Of a DNA stretch of 64,000 nucleotides, positions 51,075-61,904 are shown piece after piece. The stretch spans positions 1-64,000 of the forward strand of contig JALONP010000026.1 in assembly GCA_025454875.1 (NCBI GenBank). The letters run 5' to 3'. Source of the DNA: Bacteroidia bacterium (GTDB lineage: Bacteria > Bacteroidota > Bacteroidia > UKL13-3). Both the position numbers and the translations under genes were made by a program. Each line of letters starts with the position of its first letter. Position 1 is the first letter of the stretch. Below the pieces are notes generated by a model that saw only the letters and a list, made by a program, of their open reading frames with translations, did not search any database and was not told the origin of the DNA.

Positions 51075-51950
51075 TCATTGCTCCATGGTCATAAAATAGG
51101 CATCGGGTATTTGCAATGCGAAAAATCCATAACCTTTTTGAACATTGGTGGGTATGTTAATAATTTCTCCTCTTAGTTTATTGGCAACGCTATTGTATTT
51201 GCGTTGTGCAGTTAAAAAATCATAGTACCCTTTCGAAATATGAGTTAGGGCAATACCAAATGTATCCAATTGGTTACTTGTAAATTGCTTTGTAATGGAA
51301 TATCGACCATTAACCATTTGTTTGTCTGAAATCAAATCAAAATCTAAGCGTTGTTCCAATAGTCTTTTGGCGATATAATCTAGATCACCAGGTTTTTTAG
51401 GTAGGGTATCACGAGCTAAGTCTTGGGTATAAAAATTAACCACATACCAATTTTCTTCTGGACCAACGTCATCAAATGCATAATACAATTGGTACGTGTT
51501 TGTTGCATCTGGTGTTTTGGCAATGGAAAAAGTATCCAAAATGGCTTTGGTGAACATTTGTGTTTGTGAAACAATGTCTTGTCCCTTCTCTATGTCTTTT
51601 ACGGTAAGGGTATAGGTATTGCCAATTATTCCAGGCAATATTAGCGTAGCATATACACCTTTCGAAATTTCTTCAAGTTGAATTTGAATTCCATTTGATT
51701 CTACAAAAACCAAGGCATTACCTACAAGCAATTCTTCAGGAAAGGGCTGTGATGAGTCAGCCAACGTAATGCCTTTACTTTCGGTAGCATTAAAGGTACG
51801 TGTGAGCACAATAGCCAATTTGGATGAATCAAGCAGTTGCGATGCAACAACTATCTGTTGTGGTGCTTGTGGTACAGATAAGTCTAAGGGTTCGGGTTTA
51901 CACGACACGAAAGCAACTACAGCATACAAAAGAGGAATCCAGTTTTTCAT
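51075..51950 (-). CDS. DUF4249 lipoprotein, paired with TonB receptor 2
   Basis: The signal peptide MKNWIPLLYAVVAFVSC ends in a lipobox Cys (residue 17). The DUF4249 pattern follows (LDLSVPQAPQQIVVASQLLDSSKLAIVLTRTF...), with extracellular-type beta strands. In Bacteroidota these proteins are encoded directly after a TonB receptor and probably act as its surface lipoprotein lid. It starts 2 bases after the receptor stop and is likely cotranscribed. A paralogue is at 58431-59267. Ligand unknown. Confidence 0.85.
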   Translation of the reverse strand: MKNWIPLLYAVVAFVSCKPEPLDLSVPQAPQQIVVASQLLDSSKLAIVLTRTFNATESKGITLADSSQPFPEELLVGNALVFVESNGIQIQLEEISKGVYATLILPGIIGNTYTLTVKDIEKGQDIVSQTQMFTKAILDTFSIAKTPDATNTYQLYYAFDDVGPEENWYVVNFYTQDLARDTLPKKPGDLDYIAKRLLEQRLDFDLISDKQMVNGRYSITKQFTSNQLDTFGIALTHISKGYYDFLTAQRKYNSVANKLRGEIINIPTNVQKGYGFFALQIPDAYFMTMEQ

Positions 51951-51952
51951 TG

Positions 51953-54217
51953 TTAAAAATTAAAGTGATATGATACAGAAGGAATGCAGCCAAATAAACC
52001 AACCTGTTTATATTGAATGGAACCATTGGGTTGCACATCCATTCGAATGCGATAAGGCTGCGTGCGATTGTACACATTGTATACCCCGATTTGCCATTCG
52101 CTTGCAAATTTTTCGCGCTGTTTTCCTTTAATGGTAACGCTTATATCAAGTCGATGTGAGGGTGAAAGTACAATGCCATTGCGTTTGCCATAAATTGGGA
52201 GCGGAATTGCATCAGTATAATTTCCATTAGGTACGAGGTATTGTCCAATAATGGGTGTAAAACGTGAACCGCTCGCATAAGCAAAAACTGCTGAAAAGGT
52301 AATCCGATTATTGAGCGCATAGTTGCCTACAAATGAAACATCATGTCGCCTATCGAAGCGCGCGTAAAACCACTCTCCATTATTTAAATCATCAAACTGA
52401 CTTTTACTATACGCAAGTGTGTAACCAACCCAACCATTCCATTTTCCTGATTTGCGTTGAAGCAACAGTTCGATACCATATGCGCGCGATTGGCCTTGGG
52501 TAATGTCTTTTTCAAAGTCTGTTTGTGAAAAGCCAATAGTACCCTCTTTAAATTCTGAAACATGTTCCAACCATTTATAATAAGCCTCTGCTTGAAACTG
52601 GCAATTAGCCGGTAATTGCAATGTGTAACCTGCTGTTAATTGGTCTGCTAATTTGGGTTTAATCGCATCGGTTACTGGGTACCATACATCACTTGGTAGG
52701 GTAGAGGCTCCTGTTACCAAATGCATGTATTGCGCCATACGGGCATATGCAAGTTTCACAGATTGTTTGCTTGTGAGTGAATAGCCAACTTGTGCTCTCG
52801 GCTCCCAATTGGTATATAGCTTTTCATGTGCATCAGCTCCCGACAAACGCAGCCCATACTGAATAAAAAGTTTAGCATTAGGTTGATAATCGTTTTGGAT
52901 AAACACAGCTCCTTCATTTAAGGTGATTCTGTTTGATGGTGTGTTTGCGATAAAATCAGTAAATGCTGGGGAGCCTACGGATTGATTTGGGTTGAAAATA
53001 TGGTGCGTAAACTCAGCACCAAATTGCAGGTGATTGCGATTGTTGATGTAATAATCGTAATGCAACTTGGCCATATAATCATGAATGGTCGAAGTTGTTT
53101 TCCATTCATATTGATTAATGCGATTGGTCAAATTAAACCGATATTGTGTATGCACAAGAGAACTGTGTTGAAACAATTTCTGGCCTTCATAGTTATGATT
53201 CCACCTAAACGTTGCAGTTCTGTTGTAAAGGCGATTCGAAAAATCTGTTTGGTAAATGCGATCAGGCTTTTGGTTTTCATAATCAAGCACATCTTTTCCC
53301 AAATACCCACTCACAAAAAATTGGTCATATGCAGTAGGTTTATAACTCAATTTGGCGTTTATATCATAAAAATAGAATGGCAAATCAGACCTAACCAATT
53401 TGTACATCTGATCAATATAGGTTCTTCTTGCAGATACAATATAAGATGCTTTCTCTTTGATAATTGGTCCTTCAATACTTGCTCTTGCCGATAATAAGCC
53501 AACCCCGCCTGAAACCATGTGTTTATGCATGTTGCCATCTTTGGTTCGTATATCAAGAACAGATGACAAGCGGCCTCCGTAATTGGCTGTAAATCCTCCT
53601 TTTTGCATGGTTACATCCTTGATGGCATCATTGTTAAATACAGAAAATATTCCAACTAAATGTGAGGCATTGTATACCGGAGCATCATCTAATAGTACCA
53701 AATTTTGATCTCCTGCACCACCTCTAACCAACATCCCTGTGCTTCCATCGTGCTCCTTTTTAATCCCAGGCATCAACTGCAAAATTTTCACTACATCTCT
53801 TTCCCCTCCAAGTACGGGCAATGTATTGGCTTGTTTCATATCTATTTTTGTAATTCCTGTTCCCCATTTTTCCAATGGAGTAGTGCCAGTATTTCCGTAA
53901 ACCACAACCTCTTGAATAGATACCTTTTTTTCTGTTAAGGTAATTTTGAGGGGCATAATGAGTTGACGTGATACTTTAATAGTGGTGCTCTCGTAGCCAA
54001 TATAAGAGCATGTTAATAGGCAACCGCTTGGAACATCTATTGAAAAATAACCAAAGGCATCTGTAAGTGTACCTTTTAATTCTTCTGGGCAAGATACAGA
54101 AACACCAATTAGAGATTCGCCTGTTTGTGCATCAATGATATTGCCACTCACAGTAATATTTTGTGCGTGAATGTTGTAGGCAAGAAGAAGCAATATGGCA
54201 TTGAATAGTATTTTCAT
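51953..54217 (-). CDS. TonB-dependent receptor 2 (no STN domain)
   Basis: The signal peptide ends NIHAQ; a carboxypeptidase-like domain (about 20-105; VSGNIIDAQTGESLIGVSVSC) and plug (about 115-240; ERDVVKILQLMPGIKKEHDGSTGMLVRGGAGDQNLVLLDDAPVYNASHLVGIF) precede a beta barrel ending YHFNF. Length 754. The plug matches the STN receptor at 59269-61839 closely, but the STN signalling domain is missing, so it is probably a regulated client rather than a signaller. Motif copy b is 120 bases upstream of the start; the leader includes ATGGG-GCAA-CCCAT, a short GNRA-loop hairpin. It is followed by a DUF4249 gene. Confidence 0.93.
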   Translation of the reverse strand: MKILFNAILLLLAYNIHAQNITVSGNIIDAQTGESLIGVSVSCPEELKGTLTDAFGYFSIDVPSGCLLTCSYIGYESTTIKVSRQLIMPLKITLTEKKVSIQEVVVYGNTGTTPLEKWGTGITKIDMKQANTLPVLGGERDVVKILQLMPGIKKEHDGSTGMLVRGGAGDQNLVLLDDAPVYNASHLVGIFSVFNNDAIKDVTMQKGGFTANYGGRLSSVLDIRTKDGNMHKHMVSGGVGLLSARASIEGPIIKEKASYIVSARRTYIDQMYKLVRSDLPFYFYDINAKLSYKPTAYDQFFVSGYLGKDVLDYENQKPDRIYQTDFSNRLYNRTATFRWNHNYEGQKLFQHSSLVHTQYRFNLTNRINQYEWKTTSTIHDYMAKLHYDYYINNRNHLQFGAEFTHHIFNPNQSVGSPAFTDFIANTPSNRITLNEGAVFIQNDYQPNAKLFIQYGLRLSGADAHEKLYTNWEPRAQVGYSLTSKQSVKLAYARMAQYMHLVTGASTLPSDVWYPVTDAIKPKLADQLTAGYTLQLPANCQFQAEAYYKWLEHVSEFKEGTIGFSQTDFEKDITQGQSRAYGIELLLQRKSGKWNGWVGYTLAYSKSQFDDLNNGEWFYARFDRRHDVSFVGNYALNNRITFSAVFAYASGSRFTPIIGQYLVPNGNYTDAIPLPIYGKRNGIVLSPSHRLDISVTIKGKQREKFASEWQIGVYNVYNRTQPYRIRMDVQPNGSIQYKQVGLFGCIPSVSYHFNF

Positions 54218-54336: not shown

Positions 54337-54362
54337 GACAATCAAATTATCCAATACCCCTA
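54337..54362 (-). promoter_or_regulatory. ECF-type promoter motif, copy b (TonB receptor 2)
   Basis: On the minus strand TAGGGG, 12 bases, then TGATTGTC. It lies 120 bases upstream of the receptor start, directly after the terminator of the T9SS gene. Four other copies have the same spacing; see the finding on the local sigma regulon. Confidence 0.55.
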
Positions 54363-54372
54363 TGTATAAAGT

Positions 54373-54398
54373 AAAAAAAAGCTGCCGAAGCAGCTTTT
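54373..54398 (-). terminator. Intrinsic terminator of the T9SS protein gene
   Basis: AAAAGCTGC (54377-54385) and GCAGCTTTT (54390-54398) form a 9-bp stem with a CGAA loop, followed on the minus strand by eight T residues (complement of 54373-54380). It is 70 bases past the gene stop and 10 before motif copy b. Confidence 0.85.
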
Positions 54399-54467
54399 CA
54401 AATCAGGAGTTTTATAAAAGTTACTATTCAAATGCGAGTGAATGACCTTTTTATGCAACTTGCTTTT

Positions 54468-55352
54468 TTATTGAACCAATACCCTAAAGGTTCTGTATTG
54501 ATTACCTGCCATTACTTTGATAAAGTACATGCCCTTAGGTAATGAACCAAGGTAAATTTCATGTTTAGCAGGTGATATTTCGGAATGTTCAATCGTGTAT
54601 TGTTTACCAGTGATATCATACACTTCAATTGTAGGTGTTAAGTTTGTTTCAAGCGAAAGCAGAACCATATCTTGTGTTGGATTTGGGTACAAACTTGCTG
54701 CCAGTTGAGCTGATGGAACATCATTTACTCCTGTTGTTGGCCCTCCAGCAAATGAAAGTTCATCAACATACAAACTCACTCCTGCGTTAAATACTTCACG
54801 GTTGCTATTTTGGCCTGCTTGCATCAAGATGAATGCACTATCAGGAATAATGGTTGTATCGGCATCCCAATACATGATGGGTACAGTGAATAATTCATAG
54901 GTTGGTATTTCGGTGCTAATCTGTAGGTCACCACTTCCAATAACAGAACCATTCTTAAATACTGTTACACTGATAATACACGTATCTTTATCATTATACT
55001 CATATTTGAGATAACCTTTAAGTGCTGGACTTCGGTAGGTTAATGGAAATTTATCAATAAACTCCATCCCATTTAACTGCATGGTGCTGATACTGGCAGC
55101 AAGTTTATCTTCACTTTCAGTATTTGTTAGTTTTAATGCAAAGTTTCCGCTGTATGCATCGGTTGTAGCCGTAGCCGCAGCTGGAATGTTTTCTATCGCG
55201 TTGGAATAGTTAATGGAAAGCCAACCTTGCGGATCTGTGAAGGTTGTGCCGAAAATTGTTTTTTGTTCCCAGTTTTCAAAACCTGAGTTTGGTATTTGCG
55301 CCATTAATGGTGCGCAAATAAGGATTGTGATAATGGTGTTTAGTGTTCTCAT
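54468..55352 (-). CDS. Secreted protein with PCMD-like domain and T9SS sorting domain
   Basis: The signal peptide is MRTLNTIITILICAPLMAQ. The mature N-terminus (IPNSGFENWEQKTIFGTTFTDPQGWLSINYSN) and middle (ATTDAYSGNFALKLTNTES ... VYVDELSFAGG-like) look like a carbohydrate-binding jelly roll of the PCMD type. The C-terminal 75 residues are a type A sorting domain (ASLYPNPTQDMVLLSLETN ... LPKGMYFIKVMAGNQYRTFRV). It has its own ECF-like promoter (copy c, 25 bases ahead) and terminator, so it is monocistronic. A binding partner is not identifiable. Confidence 0.85.
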   Translation of the reverse strand: MRTLNTIITILICAPLMAQIPNSGFENWEQKTIFGTTFTDPQGWLSINYSNAIENIPAAATATTDAYSGNFALKLTNTESEDKLAASISTMQLNGMEFIDKFPLTYRSPALKGYLKYEYNDKDTCIISVTVFKNGSVIGSGDLQISTEIPTYELFTVPIMYWDADTTIIPDSAFILMQAGQNSNREVFNAGVSLYVDELSFAGGPTTGVNDVPSAQLAASLYPNPTQDMVLLSLETNLTPTIEVYDITGKQYTIEHSEISPAKHEIYLGSLPKGMYFIKVMAGNQYRTFRVLVQ

Positions 55353-55376
55353 AATTTAAATGTTAGTTGTTTGTAG

Positions 55377-55402
55377 AACAATTAGCGAAACAACTCCCCC
55401 TA
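55377..55402 (-). promoter_or_regulatory. ECF-type promoter motif, copy c (T9SS protein)
   Basis: On the minus strand TAGGGG, 12 bases, then TAATTGTT, ending 24 bases before the ATG at 55352. The spacing matches the other copies exactly. It lies between the terminator of the small membrane protein gene and the T9SS gene. Confidence 0.6.
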
Positions 55403-55411
55403 TTCATTAAT

Positions 55412-55435
55412 AAAAAAAGCTGCACTTGGCAGCTT
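55412..55435 (-). terminator. Intrinsic terminator of the 26-residue membrane protein gene
   Basis: AAGCTGC (55417-55423) and GCAGCTT (55429-55435) form a 7-bp stem with an ACTTG loop, followed on the minus strand by seven T residues (complement of 55412-55418). It starts 4 bases past the small gene's stop and uses the same GCTGC stem as the terminator at 54373. Confidence 0.8.
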
Positions 55436-55439
55436 GCTG

Positions 55440-55520
55440 TTATTGTTTTTTAAAACTTACATAGTAGGATAATCCAAAAACAATAATGATTCCGGTTATT
55501 CCAATAATAATCTCATTCAT
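55440..55520 (-). CDS. Small one-helix membrane protein, 26 residues
   Basis: The frame starts at the ATG at 55520 and encodes MNEIIIGITG, a further hydrophobic run IIIVFGLS, and the basic end YYVSFKKQ, then TAA. One membrane helix (about residues 4-19) with a positively charged C-terminus is the only domain. Support: an ECF-type promoter motif ends 25 bases before the ATG, and a T-rich terminator begins 4 bases after the stop. It is too short for ordinary gene calling. The layout recalls KdpF or toxin-like peptides, but no kdp or antitoxin gene is adjacent. Function unknown. Confidence 0.6.
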   Translation of the reverse strand: MNEIIIGITGIIIVFGLSYYVSFKKQ

Positions 55521-55545
55521 AACGATAATCTTTGGTTATCAATGA

Positions 55546-55571
55546 GACAGTTGCAAAACGAAGTACCCCTA
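55546..55571 (-). promoter_or_regulatory. ECF-type promoter motif, copy d (26-residue membrane protein)
   Basis: On the minus strand TAGGGG, 12 bases, then CAACTGTC, ending 25 bases before the ATG at 55520. It is the most divergent in its second half but keeps the A-TGT core and spacing. The remaining sequence to 55742 has no coding feature. Confidence 0.5.
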
Positions 55572-55742
55572 CTTTAGTCTACTTTTTTTAAGGTTTTAGC
55601 GTTTGTAACATAATTGCAAATGTGATGTTTGTTTATCAGATTTTGTTTGCAACTTGGTGTTGTTAGTCGCTATGTTAATATCATCTTGTAGTTGTGCTAC
55701 TTGATATGGTTTTAGTAGTTATTGCTTTTGTGAATATTAATG

Positions 55743-56816
55743 TTAAGTCTTTTGCAAAACGGTGCTGTATATTCTTACAATTTCACGGTTAAATTTTTCT
55801 GATTCTTCAAATACTGGACTGTGTCCAGATTTATCAAACAAAATAAACTCTTTATAGGGGGCATTTAAATTCGTACAGTACTTTTCTACAAGTTGCCAAG
55901 GTGTGTTATAGTCGAATAATCCAGAAATAAAAAAAACGGGTACTTTTACTTCAGGTATTTGCTCGAAGAAATTGAAATTATTGAATTCTACATCATTGAT
56001 GATGTTACCAGATGAAAATCTTGATGCTTTACTATAATTTATCAAGTCAAGAATGGAGTATTCATCTGAAAGCCAGATTGATTTTATCCAGTCAGCATAA
56101 TTCGTTTTTGCATATCGTTCACCCCCAAGCTTCAGTAGCCATTGCTTTTGTGTTACAAGGCCACCAAATCCATTTTTATACATACGTGCATACTCACCAG
56201 ATTGAGGAGGGCCAATTTGCTCCAACTCGTGTAACGCTTTTATATTACCTTGTTCCTTCGCTTTTTTGAGCGTATAATCATAAGAAATAAGTTCTCCTTC
56301 GTGTGCTGCAACTTCTTGCCCTATGCCTACATAAGCAATATAGTTTTCTGGATGCCTCTTTATGGCGTATAGACCCAATCTAGCTCCCCATGAATGTCCA
56401 ACAAGAAACACTTTCTCTTTATTAAACTGTGCTTTTAAATAATACACGAGTGTGTCAATATCTTGCAAGTAGTTCGCCACCTGAATGGTTTGCTTCGGAG
56501 TGTTTTTGTGATAGGATTTACCTGCATTTCTTTGATCCCAGTATATTACTGTAAAATACTTTTCTAATTCAAAGTTGTACTTACGTAGCAATGGTGTTGC
56601 AGATGAACCTGGTCCACCGTGTAAAAACAGCAATATGGGATTATGTGTGTTTTCGCCTCTAATTAGTATATACTGTTTAGTGCCATTAATATTAAGGTAT
56701 TGTATTTTGGAAATGCCGTTTGGAGAATTTATTTTTTGTGTATATGAACAAGATACATTTATGAGTATGAATGCAAGAATAATAGCATACACCAATCCAA
56801 TTTGTTTTTGTTTCAT
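55743..56816 (-). CDS. Alpha/beta hydrolase lipoprotein (prolyl-iminopeptidase-like, S33)
   Basis: An N-terminal lipoprotein-like signal (MKQKQIGLVYAIILAFILINVSC) precedes an alpha/beta hydrolase. Motifs: oxyanion-hole HGGPG (about residue 64), YWDQRNAGKS, nucleophile Ser in GHSWGARLG, acid Asp in SGLFDYNTP, and His in DKSGHSPVF. These match S33 peptidases such as prolyl iminopeptidases, but esterase activity is equally possible. The ORF extends to 56846 inside the sigma gene, but ATG at 56816 sits 11 bases after the sigma stop. Its position as last gene after FecR-sigma is unusual. Confidence 0.85.
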   Translation of the reverse strand: MKQKQIGLVYAIILAFILINVSCSYTQKINSPNGISKIQYLNINGTKQYILIRGENTHNPILLFLHGGPGSSATPLLRKYNFELEKYFTVIYWDQRNAGKSYHKNTPKQTIQVANYLQDIDTLVYYLKAQFNKEKVFLVGHSWGARLGLYAIKRHPENYIAYVGIGQEVAAHEGELISYDYTLKKAKEQGNIKALHELEQIGPPQSGEYARMYKNGFGGLVTQKQWLLKLGGERYAKTNYADWIKSIWLSDEYSILDLINYSKASRFSSGNIINDVEFNNFNFFEQIPEVKVPVFFISGLFDYNTPWQLVEKYCTNLNAPYKEFILFDKSGHSPVFEESEKFNREIVRIYSTVLQKT

Positions 56817-56827
56817 TAATACTCCAT

Positions 56828-57427
56828 TTAATTTAAGTAGTTCCAAACGACTGTTGCAATCATTGTTATTGTTTTGCCAATATAACTGCCAACAGATTGC
56901 CTTAAGAGTGCTAACGCTTTTCCCATTTGATTTTCAACTGTTTTAATTGACAGTTCAAGAGCCTCAGCAATTTCTTTGTAGCTTTTTTCTTCAAAGCGAC
57001 TCATTTTAAATATTAAACTGCATTTTGGCGGTAACGCGTTAATGGCATCTTCTATTTTCGATTGCAATTGTTTCGCATCTACTTGTTCAGATGCGTCAGG
57101 TATTGATAAACGGATATCGTCTTCCATATCATCTTCCATCCAATATTTTCTGTCGTTGAGTTTTAATTGATTTAGGCAGTGGTTTTTTACTGCAACATAT
57201 AGGTAAGATTTAAGTTGCATTTGTGGTGTCATTTGGTTTCGTTTTTCCCATATTTTCACAAATACCTCTTGAACCATGTCTTCAGCTTGGTCTTTGCTCT
57301 TTACAATTTCGTTTGCAAACCTTACCAAAGGTTTATAGTATTGTTTAAACAACAATTCAAGCGCTCCATGCTCATTATTGGCAAGGCGCTCCAACAATAC
57401 TCCATCATTGTTTAACTCGGTACTCAT
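56828..57427 (-). CDS. ECF-type RNA polymerase sigma factor (FecI-like)
   Basis: This 199-residue sigma factor has region 2 (EHGALELLFKQYYKPLVRFANEIVKSKDQAEDMVQEVFVKIWEK, about residues 17-62) and region 4 (INALPPKCSLIFKMSRFEEKSYKEIAEALELSIKTVENQMGKAL, about 130-175). It has a short hydrophobic C-terminus. MSTELNNDG at 57427 is the start; the frame extends to 57499. The ATG overlaps the FecR stop (ATGA), so the anti-sigma gene is upstream and the two are translationally coupled. The motif TAGGGG-N12-TGATTGTT around this locus is its likely target. Confidence 0.94.
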   Translation of the reverse strand: MSTELNNDGVLLERLANNEHGALELLFKQYYKPLVRFANEIVKSKDQAEDMVQEVFVKIWEKRNQMTPQMQLKSYLYVAVKNHCLNQLKLNDRKYWMEDDMEDDIRLSIPDASEQVDAKQLQSKIEDAINALPPKCSLIFKMSRFEEKSYKEIAEALELSIKTVENQMGKALALLRQSVGSYIGKTITMIATVVWNYLN

Positions 57428-58401
57428 TGCTTGCAGCCCTTTCCATCTAAAACAATTTGTTGGCCCTTTTGCGAATAGGTAAGTTGCAATGTTTGGCAAA
57501 CAACTGTAAGTACTTTGTTTAGTTTAGGCTTGTTAAATGTGGCAGTGAAATGACAATTGTAAATATTGGTGTCAGTTACTGAGATGGTAATGTTAAAATG
57601 GTTCTCAAGAATGCGGCATACTTCTTTCATGGACACATTGTTAAACACCAGCTGATCACTTTTCCATGCCATGTCATTGATTGCAATTGGTTCAGTAGGT
57701 TGTAATCTTCCATCTTTATCAATCAGTGCTTTTTGTCCTGCTACCACAATACCCGATTCGTTTGAATAGGCCGAAGTGAATTGTACTTTGCCCTCTGTAA
57801 CATTGAGTGAAGCAGCTTTGGTATCGGCAATAGCTTTTAAGTTAAAAGCTGTTCCCAATACCTGAACATTGGCTTGTTCTGTATGAATAACAAATGGTTT
57901 TTCGGCATTTTTGGCTACTTCAAAATAGGCTTCACCACTTAAGTCAACCACACGTTGTTTTCCCGAGAGTTTTTTTCGGTAAGATAGTTGTGAAGAGTGG
58001 TTAAGCCATACTTGGCTTCCATCAGGTAAGTTAACTTTTTTGATCTCGTTTGATGCGGTGGTAACTTGAACTGTTGGATTGTATACCGTTGAATAAATCC
58101 AAATAAAACTTGAAACAAGAATCATTGCTGCTGCAAGTTGCATCCACTGTTTACGTTGTAAAAACAAGAATTTAGCAACGGGTTGCGTTCGTTTTTGAAC
58201 CATGCTCCAAGCAGCTGTTACATCAGGTTCCCAATCTGCTGCAAGTGATTGTTCCCATAGTTGGCGACTGGTAGTAAAGGTGGCTTCATTGTCGGGTGAA
58301 GACTCTCGCCAATGCAGCAGTGTTTTTTGCTCTTCCGGAGTGGCTTCTCCAGCAAAAAACTTAGCCATGAGTATATCAGATTCGGTTGGTTTCATATACA
58401 T
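57424..58401 (-). CDS. FecR-family anti-sigma factor
   Basis: The 325-residue inner-membrane protein has a cytoplasmic sigma-binding part (about 1-80; ILMAKFFAGEATPEEQKTLLHWRES), one helix (LAAAMILVSSFIWIYSTVY, about 88-106), a FecR core (LPDGSQVWLNHSSQLSYRKKL ... GEAYFEVAKNAEKPFVIHT), and a DUF4974-like end (SMKEVCRILENHFNITISV). It passes the signal from the STN receptor to the sigma factor. Motif copy e ends only 2 bases upstream of the ATG, so a downstream start such as MKPTES (58395) or MAKFFAG (58368) may be used. The sigma gene overlaps its stop. Confidence 0.94.
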   Translation of the reverse strand: MYMKPTESDILMAKFFAGEATPEEQKTLLHWRESSPDNEATFTTSRQLWEQSLAADWEPDVTAAWSMVQKRTQPVAKFLFLQRKQWMQLAAAMILVSSFIWIYSTVYNPTVQVTTASNEIKKVNLPDGSQVWLNHSSQLSYRKKLSGKQRVVDLSGEAYFEVAKNAEKPFVIHTEQANVQVLGTAFNLKAIADTKAASLNVTEGKVQFTSAYSNESGIVVAGQKALIDKDGRLQPTEPIAINDMAWKSDQLVFNNVSMKEVCRILENHFNITISVTDTNIYNCHFTATFNKPKLNKVLTVVCQTLQLTYSQKGQQIVLDGKGCKQ

Positions 58402-58403
58402 GT

Positions 58404-58429
58404 AACAATGTAAGTGAGCAAAACCCCCA
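58404..58429 (-). promoter_or_regulatory. ECF-type promoter motif, copy e (FecR-sigma)
   Basis: On the minus strand TGGGGG, 12 bases, then ACATTGTT. It shares GGGG, ATTGTT and the spacing of the other copies, but has mismatches at the ends, and lies at the stop of the DUF4249 gene. If used, the FecR mRNA would be almost leaderless. It suggests autoregulation. Confidence 0.4.
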
Positions 58430-58430
58430 T

Positions 58431-59267
58431 TTAGGGTTTAATAAAAATAGTTTCTGTTTCCGAAATGGTATAAGCAGCAATAATTCCAATTCCATTGCTC
58501 ATATTGCTATAATCAATTGTGGGTTCTGTTGCAGGGAAAAACTCTAGGAATGATGAAGCCACCGAGTTATAATACCGTGCATAATGTAAGTCACAACTCA
58601 CAACCACCACCTGCATAAATGAGGGGACAGCCTCATCATAAGGCTTTACTAAGTTAAATTGTTGGGTTATAGATTGCCCAGGTAATAATTGTTTTATTGG
58701 TATAAATTGTTCATCAATTAGGTTCTCCATCCATCCATCTTCCATAAACAATTGCGGAAAGATGCGCACATATGCTGGTTGGCTTCCGTTTAAGGTATAA
58801 GTAATCGTTGCTTGGTACCTCGTTAGTTCGCCAAGAAAAAGCGAACTGTCAAATGTTAATGAAACAGATACGTCAACTGGTTGCGGAACCACAGCAGACC
58901 CAGTTGTTTGTTCAATCGAATCAGCTACATCAATACGGAATGTTTGTCCTGGTTCAATGGACGCGTTGAGTCCGGCATAATAGTACTGATTGTTTTCATC
59001 ATAACTTAACACGATTGGGCCACTTGGGGTGGTTAAAATCATTCTTGCGTTTTTTACATTTACTCGTTCTTGTGTTCCTGTATCACCAAATAATGGTAAT
59101 GTGTATTGTAAATAAGCAGTAGCTGAGGTATCACCAGCACCAATAAAAATACTTGGTACTAATTTTTGTTGAAAGGGCGGATACAAATCAACCTCAACAG
59201 ATTTTTGGCAACCCAAACCTACTATGGTAACCAATAGCCAAAAGCAAATTTGTAAAGTATATTTCAT
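58431..59267 (-). CDS. DUF4249 lipoprotein, paired with the STN TonB receptor
   Basis: The signal peptide ends in LLVTIVGLGC (Cys20), followed by QKSVEVDLYPPFQQKLVPSIFIGAGDTSATAYLQYTLPLFG, typical of DUF4249. The rest is beta-rich, with SIEPGQTFRIDVADS and ATITYTLNGSQPAY. It starts 1 base after the receptor stop and should form a surface complex with it. It is followed by FecR after 29 bases. Confidence 0.87.
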   Translation of the reverse strand: MKYTLQICFWLLVTIVGLGCQKSVEVDLYPPFQQKLVPSIFIGAGDTSATAYLQYTLPLFGDTGTQERVNVKNARMILTTPSGPIVLSYDENNQYYYAGLNASIEPGQTFRIDVADSIEQTTGSAVVPQPVDVSVSLTFDSSLFLGELTRYQATITYTLNGSQPAYVRIFPQLFMEDGWMENLIDEQFIPIKQLLPGQSITQQFNLVKPYDEAVPSFMQVVVVSCDLHYARYYNSVASSFLEFFPATEPTIDYSNMSNGIGIIAAYTISETETIFIKP

Positions 59268-59268
59268 G

Positions 59269-61839
59269 TTAAAATTGGATTGAATAACTCAGCGATGGCA
59301 TAATGGGGAATAGGCTGGTTCGCTTTAAAACATAAGTGTTGTCGCCAGCATTTACATCGCGTTGTGTAATTTCGTAAAAAAATGGATTTGCGCGGTTGTA
59401 CACATTATAAATACTCACTGCTAATAAACCTTTCATTCGTTTGCCTAACTCATGTTGGTATTGGAGGCTTAAATCTAAACGGTGAAATGCTTCCATTCGG
59501 AGATTGTTTTTGGCTCCATAATAATTTTGTATGTATTCACCATACACAGAGTTATGTTGGATTGGCACGTATTGGCTTGTGGGTAAGGTTAAAGGATATC
59601 CACTTCCAAACACCCAACTTGAAGCTATTTTCCAATGGGTATTGATTCGGTATTGCAAAAAGATTCCCAAATCATGTCTTCTGTCGTAATTGGCTGCATA
59701 AGGTTTACCATTATTAATACCATCTACAGTCATCATGGTTTTTGACCACGTATAACTCACCCAGCCATTCCATTTTTTGCTTTCTTTGCGAACCGAGAAT
59801 TCAACTCCGTACGCATTTGCATTGCCTTGGGTAAGCAAACTTCGCCAATCTTGTACAATGGCTTTTTCATCTAACAACGGAAGCAATAAAAAGAAAGAAC
59901 CTCCTTCTCTAAGAACAGCAATATTGGTGAGTTGCTTGTAATAACCTTCTACAGCAACCGACAAGCCTTCGATACCAACACGGTTATGTGTTACACCTAA
60001 TGTGATTAATTGTGATTGTTGGGGAACAAGATTGGCATTGGATGTGAGCCATACATCACTGGGCAATCCCAATCCGTTAAAACTTGAAATCAAATGCAAA
60101 AATTGGTTCATCATGGCATAGCTGCTCCCAATTTCTAAATATTTAGATGGCTGCCAACGAATCAATAGTCGGGGTTCTATCCGATAGTATTCAGCCTCAT
60201 TCTGGTAGTATGCAAAACGTAAGCCCGCAGATACATACAGTTGGTTTGCATATGTATTTTCATATTCAACATAGGTATACGGATTGTGTGCAACAGATGA
60301 ATCATAAACCGTTGGTGTTGTGCCAGCATTCGAACGATATAACGATGTAGAAGGATTAACAAAGTGAGTGATCCAACCAATCCCAGCCTTCAGGCGCTGC
60401 TGGTTGGTGAGTAAATAATCAATATCAGATTTAAATGTAATATCACTAATAGCTGAACGCAACTCAGATGATTCCAAGGCCTGATTGGTGGGGTTTATTT
60501 GACCATATGCAATACGTGAACGATAGTTGCTGTAGCTTACAGCAGTATTGGTAAACAGTTTTTGATTCACATAATGGTTCCATCTAAACGATAAAACACG
60601 GTTACCCCATTGAATTCCATCTCTATTCCGCGGTAATAACTCCTCCGATTGGTTTGCCATATCATCATTGCCATAATAACCGCTTAACATGATTCTGTTT
60701 TTGGAGTTGATATCAGCTGAAAGTTTCGCGTGCACATCGTAAAAGTAATAGCCTAGTTCTTGCTCTTTGTTTTGCGCCACAAGCCTACTCATTGCATCAA
60801 TATAAGACCTGCGCCCCGATACCATAAACGATGCTTTGTTTTTAACAATAGGTCCTTCGAGTACCATACTCGAACTGATAAGTCCTGCTGATGCTTCACC
60901 TTTAAGGCGCTCCCTATTGCCATCTTTCAAACTCATGTTTAAAACCGATGACAGTCGCCCCCCATAACGTGAAGAGAAGCCGCCTTTAATGAGTTCAGCA
61001 TTGCGCAATTCGCTGCCATTAAATAATGAAGACAATCCATATAAATGGTATGCATTGTAAATGGTTGCATCATCCATCAATACCAAGTTTTGGTCTTGCG
61101 AACCACCTCTCACATATAAGTAGCTGTTTCCTTCATTTCCTTTCTGCAAACCGGGCATCAACATCATGTATTTGAGCACATCCTTTTCGCCCAAAATCAT
61201 TGGAATATCACCGATTTTTTTAAGTGGCACATCTACCTTGTTAAGGACACTCTGGTTGTGAACGCCTGCCTCCGAGATAACAACTTCTGAAAGCAATGAG
61301 GATGCTTCCATTTCGATGTCAATGGTTTGGTTCGAGCCAACATCAATATTCAGGTAATACGGTTTAAAACCAACGTACAAACAAGCGAGTGTATATTTAC
61401 CGGCAGGCACTGAAAGCGCGTAATAGCCATACCCATTTGTAACGGCACCAGCGGCAACAGGGTTGGTTTGAACCACTGTTCCGATTAATAACTCGCCAGT
61501 ACCTTTTTCGTGAACGCGTCCGCTAATCGTGTACCTGTAATTGGGATTGCGGTACAGTACAATTTGGGAGCCATTGAGGTTGTATAAAATATCGGTTTCA
61601 TTAAAGAGGGCCTTTAAGGTTTGCTCAAGTGTTGCCTTTTGTAGATTTACATTTACAAGTTGGTCTAAATTAATTTGATCGCTGCTGTAAGCAAAGTCTA
61701 ATCCATACTGTTTTGTAAGTTCAGTCATTGCTACCCGTAAAGGTTGGCGTATACTTTTAAGTGTGATTTGTTGGGCGTGCGCGCTCAGCCATGCACCTAA
61801 GCACAATACTAAAGCTAGTAAATAAACCTTACGTGGCAT
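59269..61839 (-). CDS. TonB-dependent receptor with STN signalling domain
   Basis: Signal peptide MPRKVYLLALVLCLGAWLSAHAQ, then an STN domain (about 24-100; ITLKSIRQPLRVAMTELTKQYGLDFAYSSDQINL) that contacts FecR in known systems. Next are a carboxypeptidase-like domain (about 105-190; ISGRVHEKGTGELLIGTVV), a plug (about 200-330; GDIPMILGEKDVLKYMMLMPGLQKGNEG) and a barrel ending YSIQF. Length 856. The ORF reaches 61869; the chosen ATG gives the signal peptide. Motif copy a ends 39 bases before it. This makes a FecA-like surface-signalling receptor. The ligand cannot be read. Confidence 0.95.
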   Translation of the reverse strand: MPRKVYLLALVLCLGAWLSAHAQQITLKSIRQPLRVAMTELTKQYGLDFAYSSDQINLDQLVNVNLQKATLEQTLKALFNETDILYNLNGSQIVLYRNPNYRYTISGRVHEKGTGELLIGTVVQTNPVAAGAVTNGYGYYALSVPAGKYTLACLYVGFKPYYLNIDVGSNQTIDIEMEASSLLSEVVISEAGVHNQSVLNKVDVPLKKIGDIPMILGEKDVLKYMMLMPGLQKGNEGNSYLYVRGGSQDQNLVLMDDATIYNAYHLYGLSSLFNGSELRNAELIKGGFSSRYGGRLSSVLNMSLKDGNRERLKGEASAGLISSSMVLEGPIVKNKASFMVSGRRSYIDAMSRLVAQNKEQELGYYFYDVHAKLSADINSKNRIMLSGYYGNDDMANQSEELLPRNRDGIQWGNRVLSFRWNHYVNQKLFTNTAVSYSNYRSRIAYGQINPTNQALESSELRSAISDITFKSDIDYLLTNQQRLKAGIGWITHFVNPSTSLYRSNAGTTPTVYDSSVAHNPYTYVEYENTYANQLYVSAGLRFAYYQNEAEYYRIEPRLLIRWQPSKYLEIGSSYAMMNQFLHLISSFNGLGLPSDVWLTSNANLVPQQSQLITLGVTHNRVGIEGLSVAVEGYYKQLTNIAVLREGGSFFLLLPLLDEKAIVQDWRSLLTQGNANAYGVEFSVRKESKKWNGWVSYTWSKTMMTVDGINNGKPYAANYDRRHDLGIFLQYRINTHWKIASSWVFGSGYPLTLPTSQYVPIQHNSVYGEYIQNYYGAKNNLRMEAFHRLDLSLQYQHELGKRMKGLLAVSIYNVYNRANPFFYEITQRDVNAGDNTYVLKRTSLFPIMPSLSYSIQF

Positions 61840-61878
61840 ACAACAAATATATGCCGATTTTAACCCCATAGTCTAAAT

Positions 61879-61904
61879 AACAATCAATAAGCAGTTAACC
61901 CCTA
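61879..61904 (-). promoter_or_regulatory. ECF-type promoter motif, copy a (STN TonB receptor)
   Basis: On the minus strand TAGGGG, 12 bases, then TGATTGTT, ending 39 bases before the chosen ATG at 61839. It is the strongest match with copy b (13 of 14 motif positions). It lies between sucB and the receptor operon. Confidence 0.6.

Follow-up and report, generated by a model that had tools for sequence, protein, structure and literature searches.

A putative ECF sigma factor promoter element at a FecR-sigma locus in Bacteroidota

Bacteroidota carry many ECF sigma factors, few of which have a known promoter; as of 2020, no motif was known for any ECF factor of Bacteroides thetaiotaomicron (PMC7366714). 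A 64,000-nucleotide stretch of a Bacteroidia genome (hereafter the window) holds an ECF sigma gene among genes for a FecR-type regulator and TonB-dependent receptors, and it raises the question of which DNA element, if any, this sigma factor reads. An earlier note, made by eye, had proposed five copies of a bipartite motif, TAGGGG-N12-YRAYTGTY, as the promoters of a local regulon. Here, we follow this motif through the window, the 2.98-Mb genome and related loci, and propose a circuit in which it would act.

Five sites and the genes they face

A check of the sequence places all five copies, sites a to e, where the earlier note had put them, each on the minus strand and with an identical 26-bp geometry (Table 1). 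Their two boxes stand at the fixed −35/−10 distance of ECF promoters, GGGG-N16-TGT, and the sites lie upstream of genes and point at them, the sigma operon included. Site e deviates in reading TGGGGG. The proposed YRAYTGTY half needs correction, the conserved core being (A/G)TAGGGGTAA...TTGTC-N-TA. ECF promoters often have an AAC-type −35 core, a feature that is common and not universal; it is absent here, where the core is GGGG (TAGGGGTAA). A primary sigma promoter was rejected, since the sites do not match the TAnnTTTG consensus, and they do not match the Flavobacterium psychrophilum motif SM5 (TAnnTTGY; PMC9723704) either.

Table 1. Features of the locus, in window coordinates
Feature	Position	Strand	Details
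Site a	61879..61904	-	TAGGGGTTAACTGCTTATTGATTGTT; upstream of STN TonB receptor and DUF4249 genes; exact pattern match; weight-matrix rank 4, 17.6
STN-domain TonB-dependent receptor	59269..61869	-	Pfam STN (PF07660), Plug, CarbopepD_reg_2
DUF4249 protein, probable receptor partner	58431..59267	-	Pfam PF14054
Site e	58404..58429	-	TGGGGGTTTTGCTCACTTACATTGTT; upstream of fecR-sigma (putative autoregulation); weight-matrix rank 5, 11.3
FecR-type anti-sigma/sigma regulator	57424..58401	-	Pfam FecR (PF04773), FecR_C (PF16344)
ECF sigma factor, proposed motif user	56828..57427	-	TIGR02985 169.5 bits, cutoff 126.4; Sigma70_r2, r4_2
Alpha/beta hydrolase	55743..56846	-	Pfam Abhydrolase_1; overlaps sigma gene
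Site d	55546..55571	-	TAGGGGTACTTCGTTTTGCAACTGTC; upstream of short transcript; exact pattern match; weight-matrix rank 2, 22.7
26-codon ORF, putative	55443..55523	-	MNEIIIGITGIIIVFGLSYYVSFKKQ; no Pfam match; one predicted membrane helix by eye
Intrinsic terminator, ends site-d transcript	55417..55435	-	
Site c	55377..55402	-	TAGGGGGAGTTGTTTCGCTAATTGTT; upstream of type IX (T9SS) cargo gene; exact pattern match; weight-matrix rank 3, 18.0
Type IX secretion cargo protein (C-terminal sorting domain)	54468..55352	-	PF18962, TIGR04183
Intrinsic terminator, ends site-c transcript	54376..54399	-	
Site b	54337..54362	-	TAGGGGTATTGGATAATTTGATTGTC; upstream of TonB receptor 2 and DUF4249 genes; exact pattern match; weight-matrix rank 1, 28.9
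TonB-dependent receptor 2, without STN domain	51953..54217	-	Pfam Plug, CarbopepD_reg_2
DUF4249 protein, probable receptor 2 partner	51075..51950	-	Pfam PF14054

The sigma protein passes the curated cutoff of TIGR02985, a Bacteroidota sigma-70 subfamily, and its gene adjoins a FecR-family gene in a locus that also encodes an STN TonB receptor, the constellation of Fec-type signalling. For that receptor, a downstream ATG (MPRKVYL, 30 bp in) is the likelier start because of the position of the promoter. The hydrolase gene is probably co-transcribed with the sigma gene; none of the six nearest relatives has it at the equivalent position. At site e (window 58393-58404, minus strand) and at its counterparts in four other loci (L051, L054, L055 and L056), the fecR start codon falls 2–19 nt past the −10 box, so close that a leaderless or near-leaderless mRNA is possible.

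Site d heads a predicted short transcript, for which a small RNA or leader is as likely a product as the 26-residue membrane protein listed in the earlier note. Small ORFs behind orphan sites elsewhere are dissimilar to one another, which led us to reject a conserved small protein at this position. Terminator aside, the site-d RNA folds no better than its shuffles (z −0.86).

Rarity of the element and its conservation across loci

Genome-wide, TAGGGG-N12-YRAYTGTY is matched exactly at six places: sites a to d, one on contig C14 and one, intragenic, on C35. The binomial probability of finding at least four of the six within 7.6 kb is P = 6e-10, which errs on the optimistic side, the pattern having been fitted to these very sites. 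In the 64-kb window, allowing up to two mismatches gives 10 matches versus 4.3 expected, the four exact ones being a to d. The looser pattern AGGGG-N16-TGTY occurs 20 times genome-wide, versus 12 for its reverse; besides a to d and the C14 site its matches are nearly all intragenic, and one further intergenic match, on C15, is a hairpin resembling a terminator. The earlier note would have been refuted by a motif spread evenly, and in random orientation, over the genome; these searches did not refute it.

These genome-wide figures come from pattern searches. For the window, because the original pattern had been chosen from the sites themselves, we built a weight matrix on 105 instances from outside the window, with none from a to e. 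Scanned over 64 kb (~128,000 positions), this matrix put the five sites at ranks 1–5 (Table 1), with the sixth-best position scoring 2.6. The top score among 20 shuffled windows was 11.4, versus 11.3 for site e, which is thus weak on sequence alone.

The sixth exact site (G000 contig C14:47656-47681, equivalent to L064:7657-7682) stands ~10 bp upstream of a gene pair for a TonB receptor and a DUF4249 protein, the receptor having 38% identity to the STN receptor and no detected STN domain. This site is a probable distal member of the regulon, far from the sigma gene, so that the regulon, clustered as its five sites in the window are, is not purely local as had been supposed.

We then turned to 13 orthologous loci in other genomes and 80 named loci, all picked by homology of the sigma protein and not by the motif. 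Across the 80, which span 1.14 Mb, TAGGGGK-N14-TTGTY matched 77 times, compared with once for the reversed pattern, once with the spacer lengthened by one and never with it shortened by one. The hosts include Algoriphagus, Dyadobacter, Pedobacter, Olivibacter, Taibaiella and Chryseosolibacter along with many uncultured Bacteroidota. A non-redundant set held 119 matches to T[AG]GGGG-N16-TGTY, all but nine of which (110/119) precede an ORF in the same orientation, often at a distance of 20–60 bp. Conservation in this set extends outside the search pattern, to an A/G ahead of the first T, TAA after GGGG, a T ahead of TGTC and N-TA behind it, and an A-rich triplet recurs ~10 nt downstream of the element, at the expected start point.

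Position is conserved as well. Among the six nearest relatives, a site occupies the same place before the T9SS gene in all six, before receptor 2 in three and, weak as site e is by its sequence, directly before fecR in five, while no sites precede the operon-internal DUF4249 and sigma genes; sites a and d are not positionally conserved in these six. These positions were scored with a second matrix, built without the six relatives as well, which gave the same picture as the first; only 1.3% of random 270-bp stretches from the relatives' loci reach a score of 11 or more. Chance similarity picked out by eye would explain why background matches appear at two mismatches and why one exact genome match is intragenic, but it is contradicted by the ranks from the out-of-sample matrix, by the 77 matches versus 1 in independent loci and by the positional conservation, and we consider it scarcely credible.

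The element could instead be the operator of a DNA-binding regulator, which its sequence alone would allow, long and sharply defined as it is. Against this, the element is non-palindromic, has two boxes at the ECF −35/−10 distance and is oriented towards a gene with an A-rich triplet at the expected start; its common neighbours are sigma and FecR genes, and no regulator gene is shared among the annotated loci. We hold an operator to be highly improbable, and a promoter to be the better description.

Two other genomes also have intergenic sites away from their sigma loci; the genes downstream encode a putative adhesin with DUF2807 and a 206-aa protein without a Pfam match (L072:1511-2278 and L073:1552-2172).

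The sigma factor that would read the element

Genomes with an orthologue of the sigma factor hold 2.6 strict matches on average, versus 0.6 in those without (P 3e-6), and a reversed-pattern control is no different between the two. Presence of the motif clusters on the sigma tree, requiring 12 changes compared with a mean of 24 after shuffling, and none of 500 shuffles came as low. Certain sigma relatives have no site in the locus DNA scanned (four Saprospiraceae-type loci, L137, L146 and L164).

Variation in the −10 box follows the same tree. Among 28 sigma relatives initially scored as lacking the motif, 11 have a TGTA form and others single-base variants. These 11 form a well-supported subclade (Flavobacterium, Mucilaginibacter and part of Pedobacter; L125, L136, L148, L161, L163, L165, L166, L167, L168, L171 and L176) in which every locus (11/11) carries TAGGGGTAA...TGTA-N-TA, that is, a −10 box of TTGTA and not TTGTC. 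Here the element lies 2–3 kb upstream, heading a gene run into sigma, fecR and an STN gene. Because the subclade is a single branch of the tree, the switch from C to A counts as one event. Residues 70 and 83, both in region 2, rank with the positions most divergent between the TTGTC and TTGTA sigma groups and, given the general role of ECF region 2, may contact the switched base. This natural C/A specificity pair offers a handle on −10 recognition by ECF region 2.

Another sigma factor might read the element, or several ECF factors of the genome might share it. Besides the sigma protein itself, the genome has seven further matches to it, and ECF factors can overlap in specificity, as has been suggested for the F. 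psychrophilum SM6 promoters (PMC9723704). However, the sites adjoin orthologues of the sigma factor at 56828-57427, while the 16 loci of more distant ECF factors have zero; genomes without the orthologue show background counts; and the −10 base switches with the subclade of this very sigma factor. We therefore judge a different or shared reader improbable. The orthologous operons across genera and the sigma phylogeny both back the original proposal of this sigma factor as the likely user, and sites a to e are very probably −35/−10 promoters that it reads.

A wider proposal, on which we find ourselves evenly divided, is that this large Bacteroidota ECF-FecR group uses a previously undescribed promoter code, in which the −35 box keeps a constant GGGG core (TAGGGGTAA) and the sigma subclade determines the final base of a TTGT-N −10 box (mostly C; A in the Flavobacterium/Mucilaginibacter/Pedobacter branch). 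If this is true, regulons would be readable from genomes phylum-wide, and region 2 of the group's sigma factors would select the last base of the −10 box. As the motif recurs beside related sigma factors across Bacteroidota, the genes under control become predictable from sequence, and the motif is sharp enough to allow such prediction for the regulon of the whole sigma group.

Relation to known systems and a proposed circuit

The locus resembles Fec-type cell-surface signalling, typified by FecA-FecR-FecI of E. coli (ECF243, formerly ECF05-09; PMC9249621), in its STN TonB receptor, its FecR protein with a transmembrane segment, its ECF sigma factor and its target promoters before receptor genes. 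It differs in its promoter, TAGGGGT/TTGTC; in putative autoregulation, through a site that the sigma operon has of its own both in the window and in most relatives; in gene order, with fecR preceding sigma in the window; and in its targets, which take in a type IX cargo protein as well as several receptors and DUF4249 partners. No link to iron was seen for the system in the window. FecR-ECF pairs linked to Sus/PUL loci also occur in Bacteroidota (for PUL-embedded ECF factors, see PMC12596196). These pairs share the phylum and the placing of FecR and ECF genes next to TonB receptors; the partners here, in contrast, are DUF4249 proteins, and SusD was not found among the proteins scanned.

Among promoters, PM2 (−30/−10) of B. 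thetaiotaomicron (PMC7366714) is likewise a non-primary Bacteroidota promoter and has a TGTT-like −10 box (PMC12596196), a likeness drawn between the −10 halves only; it differs in being described as near-palindromic and tied to oxidative stress (PMC7366714). ECF promoters have also been proposed for B. thetaiotaomicron (PMC12596196). The SM6 promoters of F. psychrophilum, likewise compared at the −10 half, are ECF promoters of the same phylum whose targets include an ECF/anti-sigma operon; they differ in having a CGT −10 box and in serving type IX secretion machinery genes (PMC9723704). We found no earlier report of TAGGGGT...TTGTC in the literature, a search that motifs given only in figures would escape; the 2021 classification, which treats ECF groups systematically, lay outside the comparison, so an earlier prediction of the motif is possible. 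Together this suggests a system of the Fec-type kind already known, with a promoter element that is apparently unreported.

The promoter role of the element and the sigma factor as its user are strongly supported by the comparisons of sequence described above; the STN-FecR-sigma signalling steps we infer from homology. In the proposed circuit, FecR in the inner membrane would hold the sigma factor while ligand is absent. Ligand on the STN-bearing TonB receptor would cause the STN domain to signal to FecR and active sigma factor to be released. Sigma-bound polymerase would then fire from e (fecR and sigma, hence autoregulation), from a (the sensor receptor and its DUF4249 protein), from b (receptor 2 and its DUF4249 protein), from c (the type IX-secreted surface protein), from d (the short transcript) and from the distal C14 site (a third receptor with DUF4249). 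With ligand present, the cell would thus respond with a burst of proteins for outer-membrane uptake and for its surface, and a single surface signal would connect the TonB receptors paired with DUF4249 proteins to a type IX cargo protein.

The gene that follows sigma-fecR codes, in many relatives, for a protein of 550–620 aa with STN and CarboxypepD_reg domains and no detected plug domain (for example L059:11298-13142 and L057:7093-8757), possibly a signal receiver other than a TonB receptor.
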